A DNA stretch of 64,000 nt from Egicoccus sp. AB-alg2 (GCF_041821065.1 NZ_JBGUAX010000003.1:434001-498000); one strand, 5' to 3'. Numbered from the stretch's first letter, positions 11,968 to 34,408 are shown. Program-made: numbers and translations. Notes: a model not told the origin generated them from the letters alone.

Positions 11968-12013
11968 GCACGACGCGTCGGGCACGCTGGCACGACCGCT
12001 AGGCTCGTCGGCG

Positions 12014-13109: not shown

Positions 13110-13127
13110 ATCCGTTCGTGGAAAGCT

Positions 13128-13304
13128 CGTGTGGTGAACGCGCCGTCCGGACAGCCGTCAAGGGCTGCCGGACGGGGACAGGCGACCGGCCGCCGCTCCG
13201 CCAAGGGAGCGACGGAACGGGTCTTGTCCACGCTTCCACCACACGTGACACGGCGCATCGACGCCTGCGAGACGAGACCCCGCCGACGATGTCGGCGGGG
13301 TCTC
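13128..13304 (+). ncRNA. Putative structured RNA, copy 1 of 3
   Basis: Closing stem CGTGTGGTG (13128-13136) pairs perfectly with CACCACACG (13237-13245). Inside are two hairpins. The first has a roughly 13-bp stem (CCGTCCGG, bulged A, CAGCC with its complement) capped by GTCAAG. The second, CGCTCC/GGAGCG, is capped by GCCAAG. The linker GGGGACAGGCGACC after the first hairpin can pair with GGGTCTTGTCC after the second, making a junction. A 14-bp terminator closes the unit. The same architecture recurs at 31389 and 34230 with different base pairs in the stems, which argues for selection on RNA structure. I know no matching RNA family. It lies between ssrA and the DUF488 gene. Confidence 0.65.
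13274..13304 (+). terminator. Terminator of structured RNA copy 1
   Basis: GAGACCCCGCCGAC pairs with GTCGGCGGGGTCTC, 14 perfect base pairs around GAT, 62 bases before the DUF488 start. Confidence 0.75.
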
Positions 13305-13365
13305 TGTCGTGCCGGTGTCCGCGTGTGGTTTCTCCGCGGGTAGCGTGCCCCCGAACGGAGGGACC

Positions 13366-13806
13366 ATGCTCGTCTACGGGATCGGCTACGAAGGGCGCGA
13401 GCCAGCGCAGCTCGTGCAGGCCCTGTGCGCGGCCGGTGTCGAGGTGCTCGTCGACGTTCGCCAGAACGCGTCATCGCGCAAACGGGGCTTCGCCAAGACC
13501 GCGCTACGTGAACATCTCGCGGCAGCGGGCATCGACTACCTCCACCTCCGCGCGCTCGGCAATGACCGCGACAACCGTGCTGGCTTCGCGTACCTGGCGG
13601 GTCCGACCGCTGAAGCTGCGAGGGATCGCTACCGCGAGCACTTGAGCAATGGGTCTTCACCAGTGGTGGCGGACCTGCTCGAGGTGGTCCGCGAGCGAAG
13701 TGCGGCCCTGCTGTGCTTCGAGCGAGACACTCGCCACTGTCACCGCGACGTGCTCATCGACCACCTACAGGAGCTCGAGCCGAAGCTGGTCGCTCTCCCC
13801 CTCTGA
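13366..13806 (+). CDS. DUF488 family protein
   Basis: A 146-residue protein with the hallmarks of DUF488: GIGYEGREPAQLVQAL at the start, VEVLVDVRQNASSRKRGFAK (the DVR...SR..GF motif), YLHLRALGNDR, and near the end ALLCFERDTRHCHRDVLIDHL (the C.ER...CHR motif). The Cys and His of these motifs suggest a small catalytic or metal site, but the family has no established activity. It is often found in accessory regions. The start is ATG 13366 with GAGGGA upstream. Its last 42 bases overlap the 3' end of the convergent unknown gene 13765-14580. Confidence 0.85.
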   Translation: MLVYGIGYEGREPAQLVQALCAAGVEVLVDVRQNASSRKRGFAKTALREHLAAAGIDYLHLRALGNDRDNRAGFAYLAGPTAEAARDRYREHLSNGSSPVVADLLEVVRERSAALLCFERDTRHCHRDVLIDHLQELEPKLVALPL

Positions 13807-14580
13807 TCTCACGGGCGGGTAGGCCATGCCGATGACCATCCAGCCCCTGCGGGCCTGATGCTGGTTCCCCACGAAGAAGATCGTGTCTTTCGTAGGGCCC
13901 GCGATCTGGATGACGTCGCCTTCGGCCTTCGCGGGGCCGTGGTTCCGCTTCGAGTTGCGGTAGAGCTGCAGGAGCCCCCAGTCGACGACCGTCTGTGAGT
14001 GTCCCCTGCACCCTGCCTCCACGTCTCCGCAGGAGTAGTGGAACTTGAACCGCGTGGGAATCCACTCCAGGGGCCGCTTGTCGGGCATCAGCAGCGACGT
14101 CTGCGAGGCGACGGCCTCGTGTTCTGCCGACCAGGGATCATTCGGTTCGGCTGTGACGTCGAAGACCTCGCGTGGGCGGAAGGCGGCCAGGGACGTTCCC
14201 GCCGCTTCCTGCTTCCGGCGGAGCTCGCACATCGAACTCAGCATGACCGGTTCCAGGAAGTGGAGCCGGTCGCGCCACCCGGCTCGCGGTTCCACCGGCT
14301 CCCTGGTGACGATGCTGTCGATCACTGGCCGCCAGCTCTCGGGCCGCTGGTCAGAGGACGTCCGCTGTGCGTCCAGCTCGACCCACTGCCAGGTCGAGAA
14401 GCGTCCGGCTATGTCCATGTCCCTGAACGGCACTGGCCAAAGACGCGCCCACTCGAAGCTGCCCTCGCCACGCTCGCGGAGCCCGGCGACGCAGACGGTT
14501 TCGCCTTTGCGCTTCGAGATGCTCGGGTAGGCCTTCACCGTGACGAGCATCCGCAGGCGCTCCTTCACCCCATGGTGCAT
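13765..14580 (-). CDS. Conserved hypothetical protein with a Cys/Cys/His cluster
   Basis: A 271-residue protein from ATG 14580, preceded by AGGGGGA. The N-terminus reads as a strand-rich domain (MLVTVKAYPSISKRKGETVC, then WARLWPVPFRDM). The C-terminal third has HYSCGDVEAGCRGHSQTVVD, a possible zinc site (C...C..GH), then DWGLLQLYRN and FFVGNQHQARRGWMVIGMAY. I recall similar C...C.GH...DWE patterns in uncharacterised phage and island proteins, but I cannot name a function. The tail-to-tail overlap with DUF488 suggests the two were acquired together, although they are not co-transcribed. Confidence 0.6.
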   Translation of the reverse strand: MHHGVKERLRMLVTVKAYPSISKRKGETVCVAGLRERGEGSFEWARLWPVPFRDMDIAGRFSTWQWVELDAQRTSSDQRPESWRPVIDSIVTREPVEPRAGWRDRLHFLEPVMLSSMCELRRKQEAAGTSLAAFRPREVFDVTAEPNDPWSAEHEAVASQTSLLMPDKRPLEWIPTRFKFHYSCGDVEAGCRGHSQTVVDWGLLQLYRNSKRNHGPAKAEGDVIQIAGPTKDTIFFVGNQHQARRGWMVIGMAYPPVRSEGESDQLRLELL

Positions 14581-14692
14581 GAGTCCCCCTGGTTCGTGCC
14601 GAGCTTGCCACAGCGCGACGGCCTGCCGGCGGAGCCGAGGACGGACCGGCCCCGAAGCGCCGTCAGGGCGGCGTTCGCAGCCGGTCCGCCGG

Positions 14693-16345
14693 TCAGGCAG
14701 CCGGGTCCTCGAGGAGGTACTCGGTCGGCGGGTCGAAGTTCGCGAGCAGCACGTCTGGCAGGTCGAGCCGGTTCCCCGTGCTGAGGTGCCACTTCCGCAG
14801 CAGCCGCACGTTGGTGATGGCGGAGGACAGTCCGACGTGGAGGAGCCGCAGTCCGAGACAGTCTCCGCGGAACGCGTCACGCCGGAGGTTCCCGACGGAG
14901 GCGTCCTTTAGTGTGCCGAAGAAGCCCTCGACACGGGATCTGCGGCCGTAGGACACCTCCCACTTCTCGCTGCCCCAGTAGTGCTCCTGCTGCAGCTTCG
15001 GCTGGACGTCCTCGTACTTGAGGGTCACCGTCGCCTGGGTACACACCTTGGGCGGCGGAGTGAGGTCACCAGCGCCTTCAACGACGGGCAGCCCGAGAGC
15101 GGTAGCCGCTTCGACCGTTCCCGGCCGGAGTGGGCAACCGATCTTCCCAGCGGCGGCGGGGCAACCCCACCGGCTGTCGAGCGGGTTGCCGTTCCCCGGT
15201 CCATGACGTTCCAGCGCGTACTTGGACCGCAGGTCGATCTGCTGGCGGAAGAGCTCGAGCTTCGCCTTGCGTTCGTCGGCGTCGGGGTCCTCTCCGTTCG
15301 GGCCGCAGAGCGACTTCGGGCGCTTCTCGACCGGACCAGGGCGCGTCAGGTGTCCCAGGTGTTCGGGGATCAGCGGGCAGTGCGGCACGCCAGCCGCGAC
15401 GCGTGTACCACCCGCATCCAGGAAGCCGTTGCAATCTTCACTGCGCAGGTCGAGGACCTGCCGGACGTCGCGTTTGCGCAGCTCCACGGACCACCGCTCG
15501 TGGCTCTTGAAGCTGTAGTGCCGGTCGACGATCAGTTCGGTGACCTTGCTCCCTGCCGCACGCATCTGGTCGATCATGCCGAGAGTCGCGCGCACCAGGT
15601 CCGTGGACGCCGGGGTGAGGTCGACGTACTCGAGCAACAAGGGCTCGGATTCGTAGCCGCAGCCCATCGCTGGTGCGCGCACCATGCCGTGCATCGAGTA
15701 GCCGAAGAACGTCTCGGTGCCGCCGCGCTTCTTGGTCTTGCGTCCCCACGCGCCGTCGGGGTCGACCGACCGGCGATCCTGGGATCGCTCGAGCTCGTCG
15801 GTGGTGACGTCATCCTCGAGGTACTCAGGACGGTCCTTCACCTCGGTCGGCACCTTGCGGCCCTTGTTCCAGGCCCAGACCCCGGTCTCGTCGGCGGCGT
15901 ACGCGCTCGAACCGTCCGGGCGGGTCGGCAGCGTCGCTCGGATGATGCGGTTGACGATGTCGAGCAGGACGTCCTTGGTCGCGGGGTCGATCGCTCGTCC
16001 CTGCGCACCGCAGGACTTCCTAACCTTGCGGGTGAAGTTGTAGAGGCCGTCCATGGTCAGACAGACGCACGCGACACGGGTGCCGTCTTCACGTCGGACT
16101 TCCTTGGCGACACCCAGTTCGACCATTGCGAAGGGCGGGATCTCGCTGGTGAGCAGCGTATGGACGTCGTTGTAGCGCATGCTGCCCTTCGCCTGGATGC
16201 TCAGCAGGCTGCCGATGAGGAACGTCCGTGGGGAGAGGTTCCGTCGGCCTTGCTTGCTCGGGTAGCAGAAGGCTTCGAACCGTTCCGCGGCGCCGTGCGC
16301 GTCGACGAGGTGACAGGCGAGGAGGTACTGGCCGACGGTGATCAT
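14693..16345 (-). CDS. DDE-type transposase
   Basis: A 550-residue protein with an RNase-H-like DDE layout. Candidate catalytic residues are Asp in AYAADETGVWAWNKGRK, Asp in KVTELIVDRHYSFKSHERW and Glu in SRVEGFFGTLKDASVGNLRRD. A segment of about 150 residues rich in Cys, Pro and Gly (PHCPLIPEHLGH, SLCGPNGEDPD, CPAAAGKIGCPL) between the second Asp and the Glu looks like an inserted metal-binding domain. ATG 16345 has AGGAGGG upstream and overlaps the stop of the preceding gene (ATGA), so its synthesis is coupled to the integrase-like protein. Clear terminal inverted repeats were not found. The IS family is not certain. Confidence 0.75.
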   Translation of the reverse strand: MITVGQYLLACHLVDAHGAAERFEAFCYPSKQGRRNLSPRTFLIGSLLSIQAKGSMRYNDVHTLLTSEIPPFAMVELGVAKEVRREDGTRVACVCLTMDGLYNFTRKVRKSCGAQGRAIDPATKDVLLDIVNRIIRATLPTRPDGSSAYAADETGVWAWNKGRKVPTEVKDRPEYLEDDVTTDELERSQDRRSVDPDGAWGRKTKKRGGTETFFGYSMHGMVRAPAMGCGYESEPLLLEYVDLTPASTDLVRATLGMIDQMRAAGSKVTELIVDRHYSFKSHERWSVELRKRDVRQVLDLRSEDCNGFLDAGGTRVAAGVPHCPLIPEHLGHLTRPGPVEKRPKSLCGPNGEDPDADERKAKLELFRQQIDLRSKYALERHGPGNGNPLDSRWGCPAAAGKIGCPLRPGTVEAATALGLPVVEGAGDLTPPPKVCTQATVTLKYEDVQPKLQQEHYWGSEKWEVSYGRRSRVEGFFGTLKDASVGNLRRDAFRGDCLGLRLLHVGLSSAITNVRLLRKWHLSTGNRLDLPDVLLANFDPPTEYLLEDPAA

Positions 16346-17313
16346 CGGTCGCCCTCCTGCTCCCGCACGTAGCGGGCGATGTCCACGAGCGTCTGCACCG
16401 ACTTGAGCCCGGCGACGTCGAGGAGGTCGAGCAGCGGCACGCTGAGCTGGATGAGCTCGGCGAGGTAGGTCGCCCGCAGGCGGGTCTGCTCGATGTGCGG
16501 GCAGGTCGAGGGGATGACCGCCTGAGCCACGACCCGGTTGACCACGTCCTTGCGGTCCTCGGTGCGGCCGATCACCAGGTCATTGGGGCGAAGCCCGGTG
16601 AGCCCCTCTCTCACCAGCCCGACATACCGGGCGCGGACCGGAACGACGCGTGGACGCCGACCCGACACCTGCACGTCCAGCTCATCGACGCTCACGTCGA
16701 CGACGTGGCTGCGGCGCAACGGCTTGATGTCGGTCGAGTCGAGTCCAGCCCCGAGGCCGAGCCCGACGACGGCGCACATGCTCTGTCGCCGCACAGCGGT
16801 GTTCTGGTTCCGTGCCACGCGGACGATCGTGGCGACCTCGTCGGCGAGGTACGGCGGCTTCACCCGCGGACGCGCGATGGGCTGAGGCCGCGGGATGCCG
16901 TCGTATGCAGGGTTGACCTGCTTGGCGATCTCGAGCAGGTCGCTGCGGAGGTCGGCGCGGGATGCGTCGCTCAGGTGCGCGCACCTCGGCGAGGTGATGA
17001 ACGCACCGATCCGACCGACGGTCAGCAGCAGTTCCGGCTCGAGCGGCAGACCGTGCTCGTGGCTCCACGCAGTGAGCTGCGCGACGTACTGGCGCTGCTG
17101 GCGGAACTTCTCCGCACCGGTCGTCGTGGTTCGCCGCATGACCTCGATCATGGTCGGTTTGACGATCTGGAAGGTCGTGGGGGTGATGCTGGCCGGGGAG
17201 TAGTCGTCGAGCAGCTGCTGGAGTTCACCGGGCAGCTGCCGTCCCTGCTGGTGGCCGCGGACCTGCTTTGCCATCCGCCGGGCGGCGGCCTTGCTGATCT
17301 TCTTGCTTGTCAC
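16342..17313 (-). CDS. Tyrosine-recombinase-like protein, catalytic residues apparently lost
   Basis: A 323-residue protein. A basic N-terminus (SKAAARRMAKQVRG) is followed by an all-helical region like an integrase arm and core-binding domain. The C-terminal half follows integrase landmarks: GLGLGAGLDSTDIKPLRRSH aligns by eye with the ..GLR..E...L....I box, but the catalytic Arg position is Asp. TRLRATYLAEL aligns with the HxLRHTxAT box, but its His is Thr. VAGLKSVQTLVDIARYV aligns with the LGH...T..Y region, with the His missing. It therefore looks like a DNA-binding relic or a structural partner. GTG 17313 is preferred because AAGGAG lies 6 bases upstream. It is coupled to the DDE gene. 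Confidence 0.6.
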   Translation of the reverse strand: MTSKKISKAAARRMAKQVRGHQQGRQLPGELQQLLDDYSPASITPTTFQIVKPTMIEVMRRTTTTGAEKFRQQRQYVAQLTAWSHEHGLPLEPELLLTVGRIGAFITSPRCAHLSDASRADLRSDLLEIAKQVNPAYDGIPRPQPIARPRVKPPYLADEVATIVRVARNQNTAVRRQSMCAVVGLGLGAGLDSTDIKPLRRSHVVDVSVDELDVQVSGRRPRVVPVRARYVGLVREGLTGLRPNDLVIGRTEDRKDVVNRVVAQAVIPSTCPHIEQTRLRATYLAELIQLSVPLLDLLDVAGLKSVQTLVDIARYVREQEGDR

Positions 17314-17457
17314 GTCCATCTCCTTCGTGGTGGACGCGACGGACCGTGAGGACGCGGTCGGCGCGGGCATTCGCCCCGATGAGGGCAGGCGCCGGTGCGC
17401 GGTGGATGCGCAGCGCCCCCGCCGGGGGGCGGGGGCGCAAGGGGGGAAGGAGAAAGG

Positions 17458-18234
17458 TCAGAAGCTGCGGAGCGCATCGCGGCTCGCGTTGCCGTCAGCG
17501 GGCAGGTGGTCGCGCAGGCCGTCGATCTCGTCGCTGCGGAGCCCAGCCCGCATGGCCTCGAGAAGCGAGGTGCTCTGCACCACGGTGAACGCCCACGCTC
17601 GCCGCAACTGGGTGGCGTCCAGCGGTGGCAGCCGGTGTTCGCGCATCCACCGCTTGGCCTCCGACCAGGCCGCAGGGTCCAGACCGTGGTCGAAGGCATC
17701 CGGCGCGACGATGCCCTGCTCGTGCAGGGTGAGCGCTGTGCCGATGGCGTCCGCCAGATGGCGTGGCGCGTGTTCCGCGGCTGCACGGACTGCGGAAAAC
17801 TCGATGTCGCCGTAGGGCGCCGCCGTCCGGGGACCGGACCGATCAGTGCGGTTGATGCGTCGTGACCCGTCCTCGCCGGCGAGGGTCCGTTGCAGGCGGT
17901 GGAGGGCCGCGAGGTGGTTGCGCAGGCTGTTGTCCGATCTGCCTTCCTGGCGCCAGGCGACGGCGAACCGTTCGACCCACGGGCCGGTCAGCACGTCCAC
18001 CAGCCGGAGGTCTGCGACCTGTGGCGCTGCCCACGCGAGCAGAGCGACGGCGGAGCCGAGCAATGCGCGGACGTCGGCCTCGTCGGCCGGTGGAGCGGCA
18101 GCGACAAGCTCGATGACCTCGGCGCGACGGGCGGTCCACTGTGGTTCGGTGAGGGTGCGCGGCCGGTAGGAGGTGAGCACCTGGCTGACCGCGGTCGGAA
18201 GCGGAAGGGGGGCGGGGGCGTGTGAGGTGTCCAT
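17458..18234 (-). CDS. Second tyrosine-recombinase-like protein of the transposon module
   Basis: A 258-residue protein. Residues about 90-150 resemble the SAM-like core-binding domain of integrases (WVERFAVAWRQEGRSDNSLR, then HLAALHRLQ). The C-terminus has TQLRRAWAFTVVQSTSLLEA, which resembles the HxLRRTFAT box with His replaced, then GLRSDEIDGLRDHLP; the protein ends in Phe where a nucleophilic Tyr would be expected nearby. It is the first gene of the module, 144 bases before the next one. The start ATG 18234 is tentative because no strong SD is present. A DNA-targeting role for the transposase is an inference. Confidence 0.5.
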   Translation of the reverse strand: MDTSHAPAPLPLPTAVSQVLTSYRPRTLTEPQWTARRAEVIELVAAAPPADEADVRALLGSAVALLAWAAPQVADLRLVDVLTGPWVERFAVAWRQEGRSDNSLRNHLAALHRLQRTLAGEDGSRRINRTDRSGPRTAAPYGDIEFSAVRAAAEHAPRHLADAIGTALTLHEQGIVAPDAFDHGLDPAAWSEAKRWMREHRLPPLDATQLRRAWAFTVVQSTSLLEAMRAGLRSDEIDGLRDHLPADGNASRDALRSF

Positions 18235-18351
18235 GCATCCCACCGTCCGTGGGCCACCGGTGCGTGCAACCGCCTCCGCCGCGGTGAACGGCAGCGGTAG
18301 CGGCCAGCTCGCGCTGCGACCGGCTCCGGGTTGTGAGGCGGCACCAGTGCT

Positions 18352-18398
18352 GCGTCGGTGACGGCCGCGAAGGGCGCGTCGGTGGCGGCTGCGAGGGG
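18352..18398 (+). repeat. Imperfect 23-bp direct repeat (two units, 24-bp period)
   Basis: Two adjacent units begin GCGTCGGTG and match at 20 of 23 positions. They lie between the divergent starts of the transposon module (18234) and the unknown gene at 18453, where they could be transposase binding sites or an operator. Confidence 0.4.
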
Positions 18399-18452
18399 TG
18401 AGCCGGCCGTCACCGTCCGGGTCGTTCCACCCCACGACCCGAAGGAGATGGC

Positions 18453-18983
18453 ATGTTCGACGTCAACAACGCGCCCGTCACCCGCAGCGAGCTCGAGCGC
18501 TTCGCCCACCTGGTCGCCACCTCGGTCGACCATCTCGGCATCGCCCCCGGCGAGCACGACATGGCCGTCGCCGTGGCTGACGGCGCTGATGCGCTCCTGC
18601 TCCCAGGTGGGCCCGCGACACGCGATGCGGTCATGGCCGAGCTCGACCAGCTCCTGGCGGCCCCACGCAGGATGGCGGCGATGGTCTCGCTGCTCGGCTG
18701 GTCCCCGGACGCGACGCCGACGCGCCCCTCGTGGGCCCTCGTGGCGGTCGGACGAGGCGGTCTGCCGGCGGTCCTGTGTGTCCGCCGCCTCCACGAGGAC
18801 GACCACTGGACGCTGGTCGACATCCGAGACGCACCCTGGGCAGTGCTCTCAAGCGCCAGCGGCTTGCGGGCCGCCATCGAGGAGGGCCGCCCGCTGCGGC
18901 TCAAGGTCGCCCGTTCGCCTGAGCTGCTGCAGCGTCCTGATGAGCAGCCGGAGCCGCCACTCGACGAACGCGGCGAACTCTAA
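18453..18983 (+). CDS. Hypothetical protein
   Basis: A 176-residue protein from ATG 18453 with GAAGGAG at good spacing. The N-terminal half has a helix (ELERFAHLVATSVDHLG) and a segment AVADGADALLLPGGPATRDA. A central beta-rich part (WALVAVGRGGLPAVLCVRRL, then WTLVDIRDAPWAVLSS) follows, and the tail is acidic. No signal peptide or membrane helix is visible. I do not recognise the family. It is divergent from the transposon module and 159 bases upstream of hsdM on the same strand, so it could be the first gene of the restriction operon or an unrelated island gene. Confidence 0.6.
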   Translation: MFDVNNAPVTRSELERFAHLVATSVDHLGIAPGEHDMAVAVADGADALLLPGGPATRDAVMAELDQLLAAPRRMAAMVSLLGWSPDATPTRPSWALVAVGRGGLPAVLCVRRLHEDDHWTLVDIRDAPWAVLSSASGLRAAIEEGRPLRLKVARSPELLQRPDEQPEPPLDERGEL

Positions 18984-19142
18984 CCCCGCGGTCACGGTCG
19001 GGGTTGCCCGCAGCAGTGCGAGTCGCGACCATCCCGCTCATCACCCCCGGGCTGCCCGGCAGACAACGCTTACAGTGGCGGTCCCTGCCGGCGCGGCCCG
19101 CGGCGGGCGGGGCGAGAGCGCGAACGGACGCGAGGAGCGGTA

Positions 19143-21179
19143 GTGGCGGCGTACACCCATGGGGAAGCGGTCGGGTTGATCTGGTCGATCGCGGACCTGC
19201 TTCGGGGCACCTACAAGGCCCATGACTACGGCGACGTCATCCTGCCGCTGGTCGTGCTCCGACGTCTCGACCAGGCCCTGCTCGACACCAAGCCGGCGGT
19301 CTTGGAGCGCGATGCGAAGCTGGCCGACCGTGGCATCGAGAACCGCGAACCGGTGCTCCGATCAGTCTCCGGCCGGTCGTACTACAACACCTCGCCGCTG
19401 ACCTTCGACCGGCTGCTCGACGACGAGGACAACGTCCCGGCCAACTTGCGCGCCTACATCGAGGCGTTCTCACCCAACGCCCGCGACGTGATCGAGAAGT
19501 TCGGGTTCGACACCCAGATCGACAAGCTGCACGGTGCCAACCTGCTCTACCCGATTCTCGCGCGCTTCGTCGACGTCGACCTCCACCCCGACCGCGTCTC
19601 CAACCTCGACATGGGCTACCTGTTCGAGGAGCTCATCCGCCGGTTCGCAGAGCAGTCCAACGAGACCGCAGGTGAACACTTCACCCCGCGCGAGGTCATC
19701 GCCCTGTGCGTCGAGCTCCTCGCGGCGGCCGACTGGGACCGGCTCTCGCAGCCGGGTGCGATCGTCACCATGCTGGACTGCTGCGCTGGCACCGGCGGGA
19801 TGGCGTCAGTGTTCGAAGAGCACCTGCGCGCGCGCAACAGCCGGGCCCGGCTGATCCCGCACCTGCAGGAGATCAACGACGAGTCGTACGCCATCTGCAA
19901 GGCGGACCTGCTCATCAAGGGGCAGGACGCCGACAACGTCGCGTTCGGCAACAGTCTCACCGAGGACGCCTTCCCGAACCGAAGCGTGATGTACGCCCTG
20001 ACGAACCCACCTTTCGGGGTCGACTGGAAGGGCTACGCAGGGCCGATCGAGCGAGAACACGCCGAACTCGGCCACGACGGCCGGTTCGGCCCGGGTCTGC
20101 CCGCGAAGGGCGACGGGCAGCTGCTGTTCCTGCTGCACCTCCTGTCCAAGCTCAAGCCCTACGACCACGCCACCGGGACCGGCGGGGGTCGGCTTGCCAT
20201 CATCATGAATGGCTCGCCCCTGTTCTCCGGCGCCCCCGGCGGCGGTGAGTCGGAGGTTCGCCGCTACCTGATAGAGAACGACCTGCTCGAGACCATCGTC
20301 GCGCTGCCCGACCAGCTGTTCTACAACACCGGCATCTCGACCTACATCTGGGTCATCACCAACCGCAAGGCACCCGAACGCGCGGGGCATGTCCAGCTCA
20401 TCGACGCCCGCCAGCAGTTCCGCAGGATGCGCAAGAGCCTCGGCGCCAAGCGCAACGAACTCGCCGACGAGCACATCGAGCGCATCGTCGACCTCTACCA
20501 CGGCCTCGACGCCGACGGTGAGCAGGCCAAGCTCGTCCCCAACCACCGCTTCGGGTTCCGCCGCGTCACCATCGAACGACCTCTACGGGCCCGCTACGAG
20601 GGCGGCGCCGCAGCCGTCGATCGGCTCCGCACCTCACCCGACTGGAACGCGGCCCAGGTCCGCAAGTCCGATGCCGACCGCGCCGAGGACATCCTGGCCG
20701 GCATCGAGCAGGTCGTCGCTGACCTGCCGACTGACGAGCTGACCACGGCAGAGGCCGTTACCCGCGTCAAGGAGACCGACGGCTACACGGCGCTGTTGAA
20801 GAAGGCCAAGGACGCCATCGCTGCCGCGCTCACCGTCCCCGACCCCGACGCCGAACCACTCGTTGACGCCAAGGGCCATCCGCAGCCCGATCCTGACCTG
20901 CGCGGACAGGAGACCGTCCCGCTGCCCGACACCTATCAGCCCAACGACGACACCACCGACGTGCTCACCGACGGTGTCGAAGACCACCTCAAGACCGAGG
21001 TCCTCCCACACGCCCCCGACGCCTGGGTCGACCACACCAAGACCAAGCTCGGCTACGAGATCCCCTTCACCCGCATCTTCTACCGCTACCAACCGCCTCG
21101 CCCCCTCGCCGAAATCGACGCAGACATCAAGCAGGTCGAAGCCGAGATCCTCCAGCTCCTCGCCGAGGTCACGGAGTGA
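19143..21179 (+). CDS. hsdM: Type I restriction-modification methyltransferase subunit HsdM
   Basis: A 678-residue N6-adenine methyltransferase subunit of a type I system. An N-terminal helical HsdM_N domain (WSIADLLRGTYKAHDYGDVI) is followed by AGEHFTPREVIALCVELL, SAM motif I DCCAGTGG (212-219) and the catalytic NPPF at 288-291 (ALTNPPFGVDW). A long C-terminal helical part contacts HsdS and the DNA. The start is GTG 19143 with GAGGAG upstream. The stop overlaps the hsdS start (GTGA). It methylates the recognition sequence set by HsdS, which protects host DNA; with HsdR it forms the restricting complex. Confidence 0.93.
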   Translation: MAAYTHGEAVGLIWSIADLLRGTYKAHDYGDVILPLVVLRRLDQALLDTKPAVLERDAKLADRGIENREPVLRSVSGRSYYNTSPLTFDRLLDDEDNVPANLRAYIEAFSPNARDVIEKFGFDTQIDKLHGANLLYPILARFVDVDLHPDRVSNLDMGYLFEELIRRFAEQSNETAGEHFTPREVIALCVELLAAADWDRLSQPGAIVTMLDCCAGTGGMASVFEEHLRARNSRARLIPHLQEINDESYAICKADLLIKGQDADNVAFGNSLTEDAFPNRSVMYALTNPPFGVDWKGYAGPIEREHAELGHDGRFGPGLPAKGDGQLLFLLHLLSKLKPYDHATGTGGGRLAIIMNGSPLFSGAPGGGESEVRRYLIENDLLETIVALPDQLFYNTGISTYIWVITNRKAPERAGHVQLIDARQQFRRMRKSLGAKRNELADEHIERIVDLYHGLDADGEQAKLVPNHRFGFRRVTIERPLRARYEGGAAAVDRLRTSPDWNAAQVRKSDADRAEDILAGIEQVVADLPTDELTTAEAVTRVKETDGYTALLKKAKDAIAAALTVPDPDAEPLVDAKGHPQPDPDLRGQETVPLPDTYQPNDDTTDVLTDGVEDHLKTEVLPHAPDAWVDHTKTKLGYEIPFTRIFYRYQPPRPLAEIDADIKQVEAEILQLLAEVTE

Positions 21180-22333: not shown

Positions 22334-22334
22334 C

Positions 22335-26217: not shown

Positions 26218-27095
26218 TGGACTACGTCGCTCATCGCCGCATCGAAATGCGCACCGATCCGACCGTGTCCGAGAAGTGGCTGCAGGAGCGGATCATCGCC
26301 GACCCGGCGCTACTCGGACTGGGTGAGGTCGACGTCAAGGACGTCGAGCGTCGTCAGCACGCGACCGGGCGCCTCGACCTGCTGCTGCACGACGCGGAGA
26401 CCAACACCCGCTACGAGGTCGAGCTGCAGCTCGGCGCGACGGACGAGTCCCACATCATCCGCACGATCGAGTACTGGGACAACGAACGGCGACGCTACCC
26501 GCAGTACGAACACGTCGCGGTCATCGTCGCCGAGGACATCACCGCCCGCTTCTTCAACGTCATCAGCCTGCTCAACGGCCAGATCCCCATCATCGCCATC
26601 CACGTCCAGCTGCTCGAGGTCGGGGAAGCACGGACCCTGGTCTTCACCCGGGTGCTCGACCACGTCACGCTCGCCACAGATGATGAGGACGAAGCAGCCG
26701 AGCCGGCCGACCGCAGCTACTGGATCGCGAAGGGCTCCCAGGCGACCGTCGAGCTCGCTGACCGGCTCCACGCCATTGTCGAGCCGGTCGATCCGGGTAT
26801 CGAGCTCAACTACAACAAGCACTACATCGGGCTTGCCAAGCAAGGCGTCGCCAAGAACTTCCTGATCATGCGCCCACGCCGCCAGCACCTCATCGCCGAG
26901 TTCCGCCTCGCCCTCGACGAGGCTCGCCGCGAGGAGCAAGAAGCACTCGGCTTCGACGTGCTGCCCTACGACACGCGGTGGAACGCCTACCGCTTCCGGC
27001 TCACACCAGAGGATCTCGAGCAGCGAAGTGACGCACTCCGTCAGCTCGCGGTCGACGCTGAGAAGTACTACGGCACCCGGGTCGGGGGCGGCTGA
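26217..27095 (+). CDS. PD-(D/E)xK nuclease-like protein coupled to hsdR
   Basis: A 292-residue protein. The pattern ATGRLDLLLHD followed by TRYEVELQLGATDESHIIRT has the shape of a PD-(D/E)xK core: Asp in the first segment, then ExQ in place of ExK. The helix IEYWDNERRRYPQYEHVAVI is as seen in RecB-like and DUF nucleases. The C-terminal half has IELNYNKHYIGLAKQGVAKN and then a tail like DUF5655-type DNA-end proteins (FDVLPYDTRWNAYRFRLTPE). ATG 26217 shares its first base with the hsdR stop codon, so it is translationally coupled and probably belongs functionally to the restriction operon. Its role, whether nuclease, anti-restriction control or unrelated, is unknown. Confidence 0.7.
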   Translation: MDYVAHRRIEMRTDPTVSEKWLQERIIADPALLGLGEVDVKDVERRQHATGRLDLLLHDAETNTRYEVELQLGATDESHIIRTIEYWDNERRRYPQYEHVAVIVAEDITARFFNVISLLNGQIPIIAIHVQLLEVGEARTLVFTRVLDHVTLATDDEDEAAEPADRSYWIAKGSQATVELADRLHAIVEPVDPGIELNYNKHYIGLAKQGVAKNFLIMRPRRQHLIAEFRLALDEARREEQEALGFDVLPYDTRWNAYRFRLTPEDLEQRSDALRQLAVDAEKYYGTRVGGG

Positions 27096-27097
27096 CC

Positions 27098-27484
27098 ATG
27101 GGGCCTGTCGAGACCGCCGTCCGGCGAGGCTGCGTGGCCGGCCAGAGTCTGCTCACCCCGACCGGTGCCAGCTTCGTCCTCGACCGGATCGACGCCAGAG
27201 GGATCGTGCTCCTACTCGGGCAGGGACAGTCGCACACCCGCCTGCCGTGGCAGGCGCTCGAGGAGATCCCCGGGGTCTTCGAAGGTCGCGGCTGGCTGCG
27301 CACGACCGGGACCTTCGACACCGAGTCCGAGGAAGGCTCCCTGAGTGCCCACCTGAAGCGCTTCGTGAAGCGCGAGACCGCGAACTGGGTCGCAGTCGTC
27401 CTCGAGAAGGCAGGTGTGCTCGAGCTCGACCGGAGCCGACCCGTCCGGGCACGGTTGCGCGACGACTTCACCACCGGACCGTAG
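27098..27484 (+). CDS. Hypothetical protein in the restriction operon
   Basis: A 128-residue protein starting 3 bases after the preceding stop. The first 70 residues look beta-rich (TPTGASFVLDRIDARGIVLL, then RLPWQALEEIPGVF). The rest is charged helix and strand (LSAHLKRFVKRETANWVAVV). No membrane segment is visible. I do not recognise it. The tight spacing places it in the hsdMSR transcript. Confidence 0.6.
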   Translation: MGPVETAVRRGCVAGQSLLTPTGASFVLDRIDARGIVLLLGQGQSHTRLPWQALEEIPGVFEGRGWLRTTGTFDTESEEGSLSAHLKRFVKRETANWVAVVLEKAGVLELDRSRPVRARLRDDFTTGP

Positions 27485-27592
27485 ACGTGCAGTGTGGTCC
27501 CGAGCCGTCTGCCCGAGCGTCGCGGCGTGGCACGTCACAGCCCGCAGCGACACTGGCTCCGTCACAGGGCGGTGCTGGAAGGGTCCGGAGCG

Positions 27593-27961
27593 ATGAACGC
27601 AGAAGCGAACGAGGCGCCAACGCTCGAAGAGGCCGTGCAGCGCATCGCGGTCTTCGCCGAGCGCATGACGCAGCACCACGAGCAGCAGGGGTTCGGAGAG
27701 GCGCGCAGCTGGCGCCTGGTCGTTCACGAAGCTCGAAGGTCTCTCGGTCTCGACCCGGTCCTCACCGCGCCGGCAGGCGAGCCGCTGGACCGGCGACCCG
27801 CGAACGATGAGCTCGAGCGGCTCATCCGCCGCAGCCGGCTCGTACGCGAGGGCAGCACCGACCTCGCGCTCGAGACGCTCGATGCACACGAGCTCCTCGG
27901 GCAGCTCGCCGCTGAGCTGCTGCTGTGGCGCCACAGCCACCCCAACGACCTGCCCGGTTGA
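27593..27961 (+). CDS. Hypothetical helical protein
   Basis: A 122-residue protein from ATG 27593, preceded by CCGGAG. It is almost entirely predicted helix and is rich in Leu, Glu and Arg (EEAVQRIAVFAERMTQHHEQ, ANDELERLIRRSRLVREG). No catalytic motif is visible. It lies in a 530-base interval between the restriction operon and the SIR2-like gene and may be a small regulator or adaptor; this is a guess. Confidence 0.5.
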   Translation: MNAEANEAPTLEEAVQRIAVFAERMTQHHEQQGFGEARSWRLVVHEARRSLGLDPVLTAPAGEPLDRRPANDELERLIRRSRLVREGSTDLALETLDAHELLGQLAAELLLWRHSHPNDLPG

Positions 27962-28014
27962 CGTAAGGGCCGGTTATCGGTGCACGAGCGTCTCGTCGCT
28001 CCCAAGGAGGAACT

Positions 28015-29098
28015 ATGCACGTAATGGTCTTCGGAAACGGGCTCTCGTACGCGCCCACCGGTGGGCGCCTTGCCCTGCCCCAGCTCATGCCCGCCGTCTG
28101 GGAGTGGCTGGGCGTCCAAGGTCTCGATGAGGATGTTAGAGCCATTGTCCGATGGAGTCGGCCGGATCAACCAGAGCTGGACGCCGCCGACAACGAACGC
28201 AACTTCGAAGCGATCGCGGGTGCCCTTGACCGTCTCTCGCGGGGCGGTTCGCGAGATCGTTCCGCTGATCAACGCGGGCCTGGGTATCGCAGACGCTCTG
28301 GCCGACGCTTCCCATGCCCTGCGAGTTCTCTACGTCCGCGTCGTCGGGACAGCGCTGCTGGCCGTGGACAACGCGGTTGCCCCGCGGGACTTCGACCCAG
28401 CCCATCCTTACGTAGGTGCCGACCGGATGGCTATCCGAGAGATGGGCATCGCCCTCTGGGAGCTGTTCGAACGAGAAGGTTTGGCCATCTACACCTTGAA
28501 CTACGACTCCCTGTTGATGGAAGCGCTCCTCGATAGCCGCGATGGCAGAGTGGTCTACGACGGGTTTCCGTACGGGGAACTCGCTTACCCGCTCGCACCT
28601 TGGCCGAACCAGCTGCCGCTCTACCCGCTGCACGGAACGTTGGGCGCCTACCAGACACCTGACGGCAGTGTGCGCAAGACGCGGATGGAAGACGTGAGAG
28701 CCCGAAGGATGCTCGAAGGTTGGCGTGACGGCGACTTCGGTCCTGGTCTGCCCGCCGTGGTCCTCGGGGACGCGAAGCGCCACAGCATTCGACAGGAGCC
28801 GTTCGCTTCCTACTACGAGGCACTGAGCGTGGACCTCGAGCGTGCATCGAGCGTGGTCGTCGGTGGATACGGGTTCGGGGACGTGCCGCTGAACACACGG
28901 CTTGCGCGATACCTGGCCGCGGACAACCAGCGACTCCTACAGGACTGGCGACCGACGGCTACTCAAGCGGTAGACGATGTAGTCGCAGCTCTTCGCGGCG
29001 CCCTGCCGGCAGGAAGCACCCTCGACGAGGCCCAAGTCCTTCCGGTGGACGTCGGTCTACCCAGCGCGGAGGCTGTCCGGGCGCTTGTTGGTCCGTAG
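28015..29098 (+). pseudogene. SIR2-like NADase-type gene with a frameshift
   Basis: ATG 28015 follows a strong AAGGAGG. The first 75 codons read MHVMVFGNGLSYAPTGGR (a Gly-rich nucleotide-binding start) through AGALDRLSR. The coding sense then moves +1 at the run GGGG 28241-28244 and continues as AVREIVPLINAGLGIADAL, TLNYDSLLMEALLD, LYPLHGTLGAY and VVVGGYGFGDVPLN. These segments have the order seen in SIR2-like island proteins (GNG.S, NYD, HG, GYG..D). One extra G explains the break. SIR2-domain defence proteins deplete NAD+ on phage infection; that role here is inferred. The break may reflect inactivation, homopolymer phase variation or a sequencing error. Confidence 0.65.
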
Positions 29099-29178
29099 GC
29101 CCTCGCTTCGGCGATGAACCGGCTCAGGGCCGGCGTCACCGTCTGCGTCTACGCTGCTGTCAACGATGGGGAGTGGGG

Positions 29179-30303
29179 ATGAACTCGGAACGGCTTCATG
29201 CGCTGCTCGCTGAGGTCCTGCAAGAACTCAAGTCGGACAAGACGCCTGAGCTGCTCGAGAACCTCGTGGCCGCTCTACGCCGTGTGGTCGAGCAGCCCAA
29301 TCAGCCTGAACCGCAGCAGAAGGTGAGTGAACTGCGCACTCAGCTGCGCGAAGCTCTTGGGCGCGCCTCCAGCGACGGTTTCTCGCCCGGCTGGCGGCAG
29401 CATCTGGAGGAACTGGGAATCGCCCACTTGCTCGGCGCAGAGCTCCTGCAGACCATCGAGTCGGTCTTCACGGCCAACGAGATCACCCCCGCCTCTGCAG
29501 CAGATGAGCTTGAGCCGGTGCGTGACGACCTCGCGCAACTGCTCGAGGCCGTCCAACAAGCAGTCGCTGGACTGGGGAGCTTGGGGGTCGGTCGTGAGGA
29601 ACTGGAACCCGGCGCCTACGAGCTCGGAATCCTCGTACCGCGACACGCGGTCGACAGTGAACTTGCTGAGCTGGGTAACGAGTTCATCGAGATCGAGCGC
29701 ATCCTGCTGCCCTTCGTCGAGCTCGCGACGGGAAGTCGGCCCCCGCTGCAGGTGCGGGCCATCGGCTCGTCAGACTTCACAGCTTTCTTGGACGCTCTAC
29801 CCGCAGCGGCCGCGTGCGTAGCGGTCGCGGTCGAGCGGGTGATCGCGCTCTACAAGAACGTCCTCGAGCTACGCCGACTGCGCAACGAACTGAGTGATCA
29901 CGAAGTGCCGCCAGAAGCGCTGGAGGGGCTGAAGCGCCATGTCGAAGCAACGATGGAGCAGGGTCTGGAGCGGGTCGTAGAGGAGCTGAAGACTGAGTTC
30001 CCCGAGCACCTGGACGGCCATCGTCGCAACGAACTGACTTCCGAACTCTTGCGGTCCCTGAGGAAGCTCGCCAACCGGATCGACGCTGGATACAGCGTGG
30101 AGGTACGACACGAGCCGTTGCCCGAGCCGGAGGAGGATGCGGAGGATCCAGTCCCGACTTCCCAAGAGGACCTTGCCTACAGCCGTCTGGTGCGCGAGCG
30201 ACTCCCCGGTCTACGGTTCATCAAGCTCGACGGTCCGCCGATCCTTCAACTTCCGGAGGGTCCGGACGACGGGCATGCCGGTAAGGGCAGCACCGGTGTA
30301 TGA
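29179..30303 (+). CDS. Hypothetical helical protein
   Basis: A 374-residue protein (ATG 29179; GTG 29173 is possible). The N-terminal 60 residues are helical (HALLAEVLQELKSDKTPELL). The middle part has VPRHAVDSELAELGNEFIEI and a moderately hydrophobic stretch near AAAACVAVAVERVIALYKNV, then a long coiled-coil-like region (GLKRHVEATMEQGLERVVEE). The C-terminus is acidic and disordered. I do not recognise the family. Its stop overlaps the start of the next gene (ATGA), so the two products are made together. Confidence 0.6.
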   Translation: MNSERLHALLAEVLQELKSDKTPELLENLVAALRRVVEQPNQPEPQQKVSELRTQLREALGRASSDGFSPGWRQHLEELGIAHLLGAELLQTIESVFTANEITPASAADELEPVRDDLAQLLEAVQQAVAGLGSLGVGREELEPGAYELGILVPRHAVDSELAELGNEFIEIERILLPFVELATGSRPPLQVRAIGSSDFTAFLDALPAAAACVAVAVERVIALYKNVLELRRLRNELSDHEVPPEALEGLKRHVEATMEQGLERVVEELKTEFPEHLDGHRRNELTSELLRSLRKLANRIDAGYSVEVRHEPLPEPEEDAEDPVPTSQEDLAYSRLVRERLPGLRFIKLDGPPILQLPEGPDDGHAGKGSTGV

Positions 30304-31193
30304 CCAGACCGCCTGAAGTTGCTGGCACCCGATCGAGTGAGGTGCCTGTGATCGCTGGGAACGACCGGTTCCCCTTCGGAGCTCCTTCCACCCTGCGACC
30401 TGCCAATGTGCCGCCCTCTGGCGACACCCACCTCGCGGTCGTCGGCGTCTACCCGAGTGCACTTCACGTCCGCTGGGACCTGCCTACTTGGGCTGTCGCG
30501 GGTCAGGATCTGCCGCCGCGTGTCGGTGCACTGGCTGTCGACGTTGAACCGACCGTGTTCTGGGACGGCACCGACCCCGAACCGACAGAACTCGTTGCGG
30601 CATGGCAGCAACGGGTCGGCTTCCTCTCTGGTGACGAGCCGGGGAAGCACGGGCACGTCCGCGAGACGATGAACGGCACCTCGGGGCGCTCCGTCGTCGA
30701 GCGAGTTCTCGGCCCCCTGGGCGTCGATCCCTGCCGGACGATGTTCACCGACCTCGTCCCGCGCTTCTTCGTGAAGACGGGGACCGGCGGTCGCGCCGAG
30801 CAGGGCGATCGCATCCGGGACGTGTACGAACCGTTCGCTCGGCTCGTCGGTCTTCCGCCGGCGAACCTGCCGGCCCGCCCCGCACAGCGACAGCTGGTTT
30901 CGGGCGTCGTAACGGAGGAGCGAAACCGACTGAGGAACGAGCTGGCTGCCGCGGGCGCGTCCGTGATCGTGACGCTGGGCAGCGAGGCGCGGGAGGCCCT
31001 TCGTCAGATCGTGGACGACGCCGACGGCGTTCCGGCACGCGACCTCCGGCGTGATAACTACGGCGAACCTGGCACCTTGCGTATCGGTCGGTACCGGGCA
31101 CGGTGGTACGCGCTGACACACCCGGGCAACCGCTCGCCCGCCTGGCGTGAGGTTCACGCCCAGTGGGAACAGACGGTAAGACCGGCCGGGTGA
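30300..31193 (+). CDS. Hypothetical protein, possibly uracil-DNA-glycosylase-like fold
   Basis: A 297-residue protein translationally coupled to the preceding gene. Segments suggest a UDG-superfamily-like Rossmann-type fold: HLAVVGVYPSALHVRWD where the family has VGxxPG-type motif A, FTDLVPRFFVKTG in the middle, AGASVIVTLGSEAREALRQI, and ALTHPGNRSPAW where the family has an HPS motif near the end. Key residues do not match exactly, so DNA-glycosylase activity is uncertain. With the upstream partner it forms a compact two-gene module following the SIR2-like gene, in a region of defence genes. Confidence 0.5.
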   Translation: MTRPPEVAGTRSSEVPVIAGNDRFPFGAPSTLRPANVPPSGDTHLAVVGVYPSALHVRWDLPTWAVAGQDLPPRVGALAVDVEPTVFWDGTDPEPTELVAAWQQRVGFLSGDEPGKHGHVRETMNGTSGRSVVERVLGPLGVDPCRTMFTDLVPRFFVKTGTGGRAEQGDRIRDVYEPFARLVGLPPANLPARPAQRQLVSGVVTEERNRLRNELAAAGASVIVTLGSEAREALRQIVDDADGVPARDLRRDNYGEPGTLRIGRYRARWYALTHPGNRSPAWREVHAQWEQTVRPAG

Positions 31194-31200
31194 CCGCGTT

Positions 31201-31228
31201 CGTTCGTTGAAAGGCCGTGTGACGAACG
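31201..31228 (+). terminator. Possible terminator after the two-gene module
   Basis: CGTTCGT (31201-31207) pairs with ACGAACG (31222-31228) around a 14-nt loop, 8 bases after the stop codon. The stem is short. The 160 bases that follow, up to the structured RNA at 31389, show nothing I recognise. Confidence 0.4.
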
Positions 31229-31388
31229 GAGGGCAGCGGTGTGGATCCCTCGATGCGGCGCCGGCCGGAACGGCCCCCCGTGATGTCGTAGGCGGGGGTG
31301 CGGGCTTTCGCCGAACACCCCACCGCGAGCCACCGTGGCAGACGTACGTCACCGAACGTGCCTTCGCAAACGGTCCAGCTCACCAAGC

Positions 31389-31571
31389 TCGTGTGATGAA
31401 CGCGCCTCCCGAATCGTCGCCAAGGACGACTCGGAGGGGACGGGCGACCGGCCTTCGTTCCACCAAGGGGACGCGGGAACGGGTCCTGTCCACGCCTTCA
31501 TCTCACGATACCCATGGCGCGATTCGACGCCTGTAGTGACGAGACCCCGCCGATCAGTTCGGCGGGGTCTC
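31389..31571 (+). ncRNA. Putative structured RNA, copy 2 of 3
   Basis: Closing stem TCGTGTGATGAA (31389-31400) pairs with TTCATCTCACGA (31497-31508) at 11 of 12 positions. The first inner hairpin uses CCTCC/GGAGG and TCGTC/GACGA with loop GCCAAG. The second uses CGTTCC/GGGACG with loop ACCAAG. The linker GGGGACGGGCGACC pairs with GGGTCCTGTCC. The terminator follows at 31541-31571. Compared with copy 1, the hairpin stem sequences differ but remain paired. It lies between the end of the defence genes and an M23 peptidase gene; the 150 bases after the terminator hold nothing evident. Confidence 0.65.
31541..31571 (+). terminator. Terminator of structured RNA copy 2
   Basis: GAGACCCCGCCGA pairs with TCGGCGGGGTCTC, 13 perfect base pairs around a 5-nt loop. 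Confidence 0.75.
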
Positions 31572-31724
31572 CGTCGTGTCCGGGCCGGGTCGGCCGGCGG
31601 GCACGACGGGCATGGCCGGGAGCGGATCTCGTACCAGGCCGACCTTCGCCTCTACGTGGACCGCCTCGAACGGGCGGACGATTCGTTCACGGCGTTCGGC
31701 GCGCGCGGTTGCGGGTGGTTCACG

Positions 31725-32402: not shown

Positions 32403-32561
32403 TTCCACTCAGTGACGAGACGGCCCGGAAGCAGGTCGTCCCGCTGCCGCGCGGGGACGCGTCCTGACTGGCTGGTCGGTGACGACGATCACGTGCTCGC
32501 CCCGGGCGGTCCCGAACGAAGTCGCGGCACGCCCCGAGCGCCCACCGCCGGACTCGCGTCA

Positions 32562-34118
32562 TCAGAACGGCAGGGCGTCGGGGCCGCCTCGGGTGGGTTC
32601 GGGTGGGGGCGGGGCAGGGTCGGTCGGCCCGGGGCCGTGGTGGCCGGGCGGTTCGGGGCGGGGTGGTCGTCGTCGGCGGGGGTCGTTGGCTGGCCGCCAG
32701 GTCGTGGGGATGGTTGTGGTGGTCAGCCCGGAGCGGGCATGCACCCAGGTCCGGGTGCCGCCGCGCCGTTGGGTGACCTGCCAGCCGGCCGACTCCTTGT
32801 CCCGGTTGGTGCGGGCGCACAGCGGTCCGAGGTTGTCGAGGTCGGTCGTACCGGCCGGCGTGTTTGGGCCGGCCGGCCACCAGGGGGCGGCATGGTCGAT
32901 CTGGGCGCCTCTGGCGGGGCGGTCACAGCCCGGGCCGGTACAGGTGTCGTACACGGCGGCGAGGATGTCGCCGAACGAGCCGGGCGGTCGGCGTGAGGCA
33001 CGGCCGATGCCGAGGACCTCGCCGTCGTCGTCGATGATGATCGTGCGCAGCCGGGTGCCGGCCCGCTCGAGCAGACGAGCGGCCGCCGCAGAGGTGAGCC
33101 GCAGCCGGCCACCGACCAGGGTGGTGAGCAGGTCGGCGGGCAGCCGGTCGTCGAGCAGCGCGTCGAACGGCAGGCGGATCAGCAGCCGGGGCGCGGGCAG
33201 CGTGTCCCGCCAGTCGGGGGCGGCCGACGCATCGGCGACCTCGGCGACCTCGGCGACCTCGGCGGGGGGCTCCCCGTCGGCGGTCTGGAACGAGCCGGTC
33301 AGGCGGGCCAGCAACGTGTCGAGGCGGGCGGCGCTGACGCTGCCGGTCGCCTCGATCGCCGCGGCGGTGGGCGTGGTGGCGGCATCGATCAGGGCCAGCC
33401 CGGCGGCGTCGAGTTCGGCGTGCAGGGTGCCACCGGTTCCGTCCAGCCGCGGCTGCAGATGCAGGAACCGGCCCGCCTGCGCGTCGCGTTCGCGTGCGGC
33501 GAGGTCGTCGGTGTCGAGTTCGTCCACGGCATCGACCATCTGGCGCACCAGCACGTCGGGGTCGGGACGTGCAAGCCGGCTGAGCTCGTCGAGCAGGGCG
33601 GCGAAGAGCTGGTCGAGCTGCTGGTCGAGTTCACGGCGGGCGTTGCGCAGCCCGATGGTCAGGCCACGTAGCTGTGCGAACGAGATCCGGTGGCCGCGGA
33701 CGGCCGCGTGCAGCGACGGGAGGCGTCGCAGCAGCCGGCAGGCCCGCAACAGCAGGCGGCGGTCCATGCGTGTCTGAACGCCGATGGTGGCCAGCCAGTG
33801 CTCGATGCCGACACCGGTGGTGCGCTCGACCGTGTCGTTGGCCAGCAGGTCGGCCAGCCCGGCCACGGCGTCCAGCAGCGCGCCGTCCGCGGCCTGCAGC
33901 CGCTGGAGCACCCCGGCCAGTTGCGGCAGCTCGGCCAGTACCGGCAGCCCGAACGGTGCCTCGGACGTCGACGGCGAACCCGTCGGGCCGGCCGGCGACG
34001 CCTGGTAGGCCCCCTGGTGTTCGCCGGCCAGGACCGGGCCACCCGGCCGGCGGGCGGTGCACCGCTGGCGCCGCCCGTGGGCGACGGGCGCGGTGCGGAT
34101 CCGGGTGGTCGAGTACAT
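32562..34118 (-). CDS. DUF222 / HNH endonuclease domain protein (13E12-type)
   Basis: A 518-residue protein. The N-terminal DUF222 region (LQRLQAADGALLDAVAGLAD, then HWLATIGVQTRMDRRLLLRA, then RGHRISFAQLRGLTIGLRNA) is followed by a C-terminal HNH module: CTGPGCDRPARGAQIDHAAP, then DLDNLGPLCARTNRDKESAGW. The first His and the Asn are present; the usual last His is Asn, as in some family members. An EVA tripeptide repeat arises from three 9-bp DNA repeats (33233-33259). Such genes are multicopy in actinobacteria and have been linked to mobile elements; their function is unproven. Structured RNA copy 3 begins 112 bases upstream of its start, on the opposite strand. Confidence 0.8.
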   Translation of the reverse strand: MYSTTRIRTAPVAHGRRQRCTARRPGGPVLAGEHQGAYQASPAGPTGSPSTSEAPFGLPVLAELPQLAGVLQRLQAADGALLDAVAGLADLLANDTVERTTGVGIEHWLATIGVQTRMDRRLLLRACRLLRRLPSLHAAVRGHRISFAQLRGLTIGLRNARRELDQQLDQLFAALLDELSRLARPDPDVLVRQMVDAVDELDTDDLAARERDAQAGRFLHLQPRLDGTGGTLHAELDAAGLALIDAATTPTAAAIEATGSVSAARLDTLLARLTGSFQTADGEPPAEVAEVAEVADASAAPDWRDTLPAPRLLIRLPFDALLDDRLPADLLTTLVGGRLRLTSAAAARLLERAGTRLRTIIIDDDGEVLGIGRASRRPPGSFGDILAAVYDTCTGPGCDRPARGAQIDHAAPWWPAGPNTPAGTTDLDNLGPLCARTNRDKESAGWQVTQRRGGTRTWVHARSGLTTTTIPTTWRPANDPRRRRPPRPEPPGHHGPGPTDPAPPPPEPTRGGPDALPF

Positions 34119-34229
34119 GGCCGACAGTGAACACCGACCCTGTGACATCCCGACGGGGGCACCTGGACCGCAGCGATTCGGGACGTTCGTCACTGCGGGC
34201 CCTCCGTGTGACGGCCGACACTCGGCGGG

Positions 34230-34408
34230 TTCGTGTGATGAACGCGCCTCCGGGTCAGCCACCAAGGGCCGGACCGAGGGGACGGGCGACCGGGCGCCGC
34301 TCCGCCAAGGGAGCGACGCAACGGGTCCTGTCCACGCCTTCATCGCATGAACGCCCGGCGTGAGCGACGCCGGAAGGAACGAGACCCCGCCGACCCCGGC
34401 GGGGTCTC
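34230..34408 (+). ncRNA. Putative structured RNA, copy 3 of 3
   Basis: Closing stem TTCGTGTGATGAA (34230-34242) pairs with TTCATCGCATGAA (34339-34351) over 13 positions, two of them G-U wobbles where copy 1 has Watson-Crick pairs. The first inner hairpin (CCTC/GAGG, GGTC/GACC, GCC/GGC) has loop ACCAAG. The second, CGCTCC/GGAGCG, has loop GCCAAG. Linker pairing GGGACGGGCGACC with GGGTCCTGTCC is kept. The terminator is at 34381-34408. Nothing else is recognisable in the 574-base gap between the DUF222 gene and the giant secreted-protein gene at 34693. Confidence 0.65.
34381..34408 (+). terminator. Terminator of structured RNA copy 3
   Basis: GAGACCCCGCCG pairs with CGGCGGGGTCTC, 12 perfect base pairs around ACCC. 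Confidence 0.75.

Follow-up and report, generated by a model that had tools for sequence, protein, structure and literature searches.

A structured RNA family fixed behind the tmRNA gene ssrA in the actinobacterial order Nitriliruptorales

Introduction

Does a hairpin-rich element that is repeated three times in the DNA of Egicoccus sp. AB-alg2 act as RNA or as DNA, and to which gene does it belong? The question was raised by a 64,000-nucleotide (nt) stretch (GCF_041821065.1, NZ_JBGUAX010000003.1:434001-498000), analysed as a whole and referred to here as the window. A first reading of the sequence alone (the sequence-only reading) had described three copies with one shared plan and had offered a trans-acting small RNA (sRNA), a riboswitch-like leader or a mobile DNA element as explanations. 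The gene upstream of copy 1, left unnamed in that reading, is ssrA, which encodes transfer-messenger RNA (tmRNA). The element is a genuine new, previously uncatalogued family of noncoding RNA (ncRNA) that the searches found in a single actinobacterial order (Nitriliruptorales) and that is tied to ssrA. The near-universal tmRNA has been studied very thoroughly, and still the literature searched yielded no structured RNA with a fixed place behind ssrA; for Actinobacteria, no RNA behind tmRNA was described in that literature, many subscription papers being outside the reach of the search.

Fold of the element

The three copies lie where the sequence-only reading had placed them, all on the plus strand (Table 1), and the exact pattern of the 5' half, GAACGCGCC-N(15-45)-GGGGACRGGCGACCGG, gave three matches in the window against 0.00 expected from shuffles. 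The proposed common plan (a closing stem, two CAAG-loop hairpins and a paired linker) was confirmed by folding, with z = -7.4, -6.1 and -5.5 for copies 1, 2 and 3, respectively, relative to dinucleotide shuffles. The closing stem, P1, consists of ten pairs, a 3-nt internal loop and three further pairs and opens into a three-way junction carrying the hairpins P2 and P3. The loop of the first hairpin reads GTCAAG, GCCAAG and ACCAAG in copies 1, 2 and 3; GGGGACRGGCGACC pairs with GGGTCYTGTCC in each copy and the loop of the second hairpin is GCCAAG or ACCAAG. The stem of P3 is long and interrupted, with 7 + 3 + 3 + 6 pairs, and contains an internal loop, CGA/GU. Each terminal loop has the form R(Y)CAAG and is closed by a C-G pair.

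Covariance models were built from six sequences (R1) and from 21 sequences (R2). Alignment of the 21 homologues added a conserved hairpin, P4, between P1 and the terminator (typical form GCG-CAUCGA-CGC), as a further refinement of the plan, and a motif NAAGC immediately 5' of P1 in most family members. The terminator that had been claimed for the element was recovered in part: a strong hairpin ends each copy, and it is called terminator-like only because its U-run is poor. Since this hairpin was exchanged outright in two of the genomes compared (G023 and G024), where it is wholly replaced, it evolves as a module.

Covariation and evidence for RNA

The covariation that the sequence-only reading saw directly in the window is suggestive with the three copies alone and became clear with 21 homologues. 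At least one two-sided change was present in 24 of the 43 pairs and 93.4% of the cells paired, in a model-fitted alignment that is biased towards the structure, the structure itself having been proposed before the homologues were seen. The covariation score was 0.306 versus 0.124 after shuffling, a value reached by 0 of 500 shuffles, and all covariation measures collapsed once the partners were slid by 1-3 columns. Because kinship among the sequences can mislead column shuffles, a second test was performed with our own R-scape-like null, which preserves the tree and the substitutions on each branch. Five pairs, spread over P2 and P3, reached E < 0.05 and none lay outside the structure; the top five among the 7260 scored pairs were all structure pairs. 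Compensatory changes beyond phylogenetic expectation, the criterion for a structured ncRNA, were thus found.

The loops and the internal loop are near-invariant, the stems variable. G-U pairs occupied 35 cells versus 11 for A-C, which argues for plus-strand RNA rather than a DNA hairpin. Copies 1-3 differ from one another by compensated changes, so the fold was kept in copies 2 and 3 after duplication. A coding reading was discounted because of single-base indels and paired changes among the homologues.

That the element belongs to no Rfam-type family was also borne out. Rfam 15 at the gathering threshold returned only the tmRNA from the whole window, a permissive search with copy 1 gave a best score of 15.8 bits on the terminator only, and the core was without an Rfam match at the loci of G001, G003, G005 and G065. 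BLAST of the copies against phages and plasmids gave nothing except a 41-nt chance match.

Position behind ssrA

Copy 1 starts 41 nt past the end of ssrA, which itself follows smpB. A model hit and ssrA were found on one contig in 17 genomes, and in 17 of 17 one copy lies on the same strand, 7-78 nt behind the tmRNA (gaps include 7, 7, 8, 19, 21, 23, 37 ... 78 nt); the remaining three hits sit at the start of a contig or close to it. G003 and G015 have a single copy each, the one adjacent to ssrA. In three genomes the gap is 7-8 nt, too short for a separate promoter to lie outside the tmRNA acceptor arm, and a promoter scan, of a kind that performs poorly for this phylum, detected none. At the level of sequence, these comparisons establish that a folded RNA is under selection and holds a fixed, same-strand position behind ssrA, with a terminator-like hairpin at its end; its RNA nature and its linkage to ssrA are well supported on these grounds.

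The start of the tmRNA tag, GCCAAGGAC, looks like the loop of the element; this likeness was not kept in the tags of related genomes and was dropped as coincidence.

The genes on the other side of the element bear on the suggestion that it controls the next gene as a leader, riboswitch-like or of ANTAR type. A same-strand gene does follow each copy in the window, and the twin hairpins, with loops of six bases, bring ANTAR target RNAs to mind. In other genomes, however, the genes that come next are unrelated and for the most part convergent, on the opposite strand, with no conserved related same-strand gene downstream; the unit is closed by its terminator hairpin, the loops depart from the ANTAR rule (see below) and Rfam gave no match. 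For the family this rules out a leader role, to which we attach almost no probability.

Distribution and divergent relatives

The R1 search found the RNA, with compensated changes among the homologues, in 20 of the 35 genomes of the family. When R2 was run across the phylum, 13 of 396 genomes were positive, every one of them in the same family. DNA-pattern scans gave at least 118 stretches in genome contigs and 26 in viral contigs; among the stretches listed, only two passed the covariance model. Both are from Nitriliruptoraceae metagenome-assembled genomes (MAGs), and their positions and scores match hits already found.

Several genomes of the order carry ssrA and give a weak model hit or none. 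For these divergent loci the 200 nt behind ssrA were read for paired CAAG motifs. Two CAAG motifs 40-42 nt apart were present in six of seven divergent genomes of the order (G004, G005, G007, G014, G032 and G065, the last from another family of the order), and the seventh, G006, retains one. The twin motif was found behind ssrA at 0 of 23 loci in other families of the class, i.e. outside the order, and its chance rate by shuffling is about 1% per locus (range 0 to about 3%). Thus the paired loops are the best conserved feature of the family, outliving most of its sequence.

Table 1. Coordinates in the window of the element copies, the adjacent genes and the cargo.
Feature	Coordinates	Strand	Evidence or remark
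Copy 1, Y-shaped RNA (closing stem P1, hairpins P2 and P3)	13125..13248	+	Loops GTCAAG 13157-13162, GCCAAG 13200-13205
P4 of copy 1, small hairpin GGCG-CATCGA-CGCC	13252..13265	+	Family-wide conservation, alignment of 21 homologues
Copy 1 terminator-like hairpin, poor U-run	13271..13310	+	Folding, sequence
Copy 2	31387..31510	+	Loops GCCAAG 31419-31424, ACCAAG 31462-31467; P4 31516-31531
Copy 2 terminator-like hairpin	31538..31577	+	Folding
Copy 3	34229..34352	+	Loops ACCAAG 34261-34266, GCCAAG 34304-34309; P4 34357-34371, its loop altered
Copy 3 terminator-like hairpin	34380..34414	+	Folding
Full repeated units, P1 through terminator hairpin	About 13123-13315, 31385-31583, 34231-34414		
smpB (tmRNA-binding protein), upstream neighbour	11831..12502	+	Pfam SmpB, E = 3e-55
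ssrA, tmRNA gene, tag AKDNDLALAA	12725..13084	+	Rfam RF00023, 147 bits; ARAGORN; 3' end ...CAGCUCCACC-G, without an encoded CCA
Cargo between copies 1 and 2, outside the RNA	13366..31193	.	DUF488, type I restriction-modification, SIR2-like, family-less genes
hsdM	19143-21179		Cargo
hsdS	21176-22333		Cargo
hsdR	About 23071-26217		Cargo
SIR2-like gene	28061-29098		Cargo

Copies 2 and 3 and the defence island

In a tree of the units, all copies of G000, G001 and G003 together with G022 form one clade (support 0.88), and the duplicates therefore arose near this genus. Copies 1 and 2 enclose 18-22 kb of cargo with type I restriction-modification in G000 and G001, and in G000 also a SIR2-like gene. 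The cargo is variable; the restriction-modification system is complete (hsdM, hsdS, a RAMA-domain gene and hsdR) and is accompanied by DUF488, DUF5655-like and SIR2-like genes. The island of G001 is related and carries a transposase pair resembling those of insertion sequences (IS). G003 and G015 are without the island, and synteny with them picks up again at about 48.3-49.8 kb of the window.

One explanation at the DNA level is that the element is mainly a place behind ssrA at which islands are acquired by recombination or integration, with its hairpins used by a recombinase. Integration at ssrA is known, the island lies between copies 1 and 2 in two species, and copies 1 and 2 of G001 share 241 bp at 99.6% identity that start from the tmRNA 3' tip (L040/L041, 4045-4285 and 26102-26342 in joined coordinates), whereas those of G000 are 78% identical. 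As the two-copy layout is common to both species, this difference is a sign of recombination or gene conversion in G001. We nevertheless consider a DNA site very unlikely to be what the element is for. Most genomes hold a single copy and lack a second flank, searches of the cargo with Pfam, NCBIfam, PHROGs and PADLOC gave no integrase, a second copy of the 24-nt tmRNA 3' end was not found with up to three mismatches, and the excess of G-U over A-C favours RNA pairing over DNA. A classical integrase-borne attachment site at ssrA was rejected on the lack of a tmRNA 3'-end repeat and of an integrase match. Copies 2 and 3 are probably duplicates made by homologous recombination at the element. The mobile-element suggestion thus does not hold for the family, in most genomes of which one copy is fixed behind ssrA, and holds in part for copies 2 and 3, apparently recombination-made duplicates beside an island. 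The locus offers a clean case in which to ask how an RNA gene beside ssrA turns into the flank of a defence island.

Further copies stand near the ends of genes. Copy 2 is 196 nt behind a same-strand gene; contig C425 of G022 (L037/L049) holds, behind a protein-coding gene and away from any tmRNA, a second element that is decayed and has a terminator of its own; and the decayed copies of G001 and G022 begin at, or just past, a stop codon. Such placements would suit a portable 3'-end module of stem-loops and terminator for transcription units, of which the ssrA copy would be the oldest. The gene-end copies in G001 and G022 are decayed, however, and a module of this kind leaves the fixed loops and the fixed position at ssrA unexplained, so that we hold it to be quite unlikely.

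Three side observations concern this region. GTTCGTTGAAAGGCCGTGTGACGAACGG at 31207-31230, just past the stop codon that ends the gene 30300-31193, is similar to the 5' strand of P1, at the start of the element, and is conserved in G001; the site may be a remnant of another copy. Within the cargo, 14693-16345 (-) encodes a 550-residue protein with weak IS1182 transposase similarity (30 bits, far under the cut-off) that is partly conserved in G001. Directly behind copy 3, 34693-45294 encodes a giant protein of 3533 residues with RTX calcium-binding repeats near its C-terminus, a gene that is absent at the corresponding place in the relatives compared.

Proposed mechanism

The best explanation, to which we give about an even chance, is that the RNA is co-transcribed with tmRNA, is freed by tmRNA 3' processing and presents its two equal loops to a conserved partner. 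Co-transcription is suggested by the strand, the spacing and the lack of room for a promoter: transcription would run from the ssrA promoter through tmRNA and the element and stop at the terminator hairpin of the latter. An RNase Z-type 3' cut is expected where CCA is not encoded. Such a cut, at the discriminator, is thus expected in this family, in which CCA is not encoded at 11 of the 17 ssrA loci (it is encoded in G003, G015, G016, G017, G021 and G027). Maturation of the tmRNA 3' end would then release a trailer RNA of roughly 190-250 nt, whose three-way junction, shown by covariation, keeps the nearly identical pair of R(Y)CAAG loops a fixed distance apart; it also bears the CAUCGA-loop hairpin.

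As the loops and the internal loop are fixed and the stems free, the loops are most likely paired binding sites for a conserved partner, which the strong conservation, the order-wide tie to ssrA and the two fixed loops together imply; it would probably be a dimeric protein, as in the analogous case of RNAs whose twin loops bind such proteins. The RNA would act in trans as a scaffold or decoy produced in step with tmRNA. The trans-acting sRNA of the sequence-only reading agrees with a unit that is sRNA-like and carries its own terminator, the action in trans being what we infer, together with the release on tmRNA processing and the loop partner, from sequence and analogy. The extra copies in the genus would have come about by recombination at the element and now border the defence island.

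The partner may be sought in ribosome rescue. If the RNA were a companion of trans-translation, with its CAAG loops binding SmpB, the ribosome or a rescue-linked factor, it would tune ribosome rescue in the Nitriliruptorales; we regard this version as unlikely. Loop complementarity gave no lead, as tmRNA contains neither CCUUG nor CUUG and the matches in ribosomal RNA are short and at chance level only. The family possibly represents a new layer of control or maturation in ribosome rescue.

Several observations weigh against a co-transcribed RNA acting in trans. G028 and G029, of the same family, have ssrA but neither CAAG motif; they have either lost the RNA or never had it, and the element is therefore not essential for tmRNA. 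The G023 contig has about 580 nt 5' of the element without a recognisable tmRNA, which may mean that the copy was displaced or that the MAG contig was assembled wrongly. Copy 3 of G001 is decayed, its 5' half being replaced by the end of a coding gene, and no recognisable promoter was found for copies 2 and 3, so these extra copies may be silent.

The fixed position, finally, would be explained too by a cis role in tmRNA maturation, the main rival. The element would then be a 3' trailer of pre-tmRNA that stabilizes the precursor, brings in a processing nuclease or shapes the 3' end before being degraded, without acting elsewhere. Position and strand behind ssrA are fixed, the terminator is always attached and divergent forms remain at ssrA, as a cis trailer would predict. 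Yet the gap to tmRNA ranges over 7-78 nt, a barrier would not need two hairpins with fixed loops, the fold is retained in copies 2 and 3, far from any tmRNA, and G028 and G029 manage without the element. We therefore view a purely cis-acting trailer as a real possibility, albeit on the improbable side.

Comparison with known systems

ANTAR target RNAs likewise consist of two neighbouring hairpins with six-base loops, to which in that system a regulatory protein binds. Their loops conserve A1 and G4, the linker is 2-25 nt and they occur in leaders or open reading frames (PMC8164766). An ANTAR target RNA was rejected here since position 4 of the R(Y)CAAG loops is A and never G; in addition, and unlike the ANTAR arrangement, the second hairpin of the element tips a long interrupted stem and the element sits behind tmRNA.

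Like Ms1 and 6S RNA, the element is a structured sRNA of housekeeping type, and Ms1 is widespread in Actinobacteria, where its gene lies beside a HAD hydrolase gene (PMC9130861). Ms1 and 6S RNA bind RNA polymerase and fold as a single long hairpin around a large central bubble, whereas the element is a three-way junction. Identity with 6S/Ms1 RNA was rejected on the covarying junction, the absence of an Rfam match and the presence of ssrA instead of a HAD hydrolase gene as the neighbour.

With islands at the 3' end of ssrA the locus shares variable, defence-bearing DNA straight behind ssrA. It differs in that neither an integrase nor a duplicated tmRNA 3' end was found, the repeated flank being the RNA element itself. 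Compared with known sRNAs derived from 3' untranslated regions or trailers, the host transcript here would be tmRNA, a companion for which the literature searched holds no precedent; the likeness lies in the proposed release from the 3' part of a longer transcript and in an end at a terminator.

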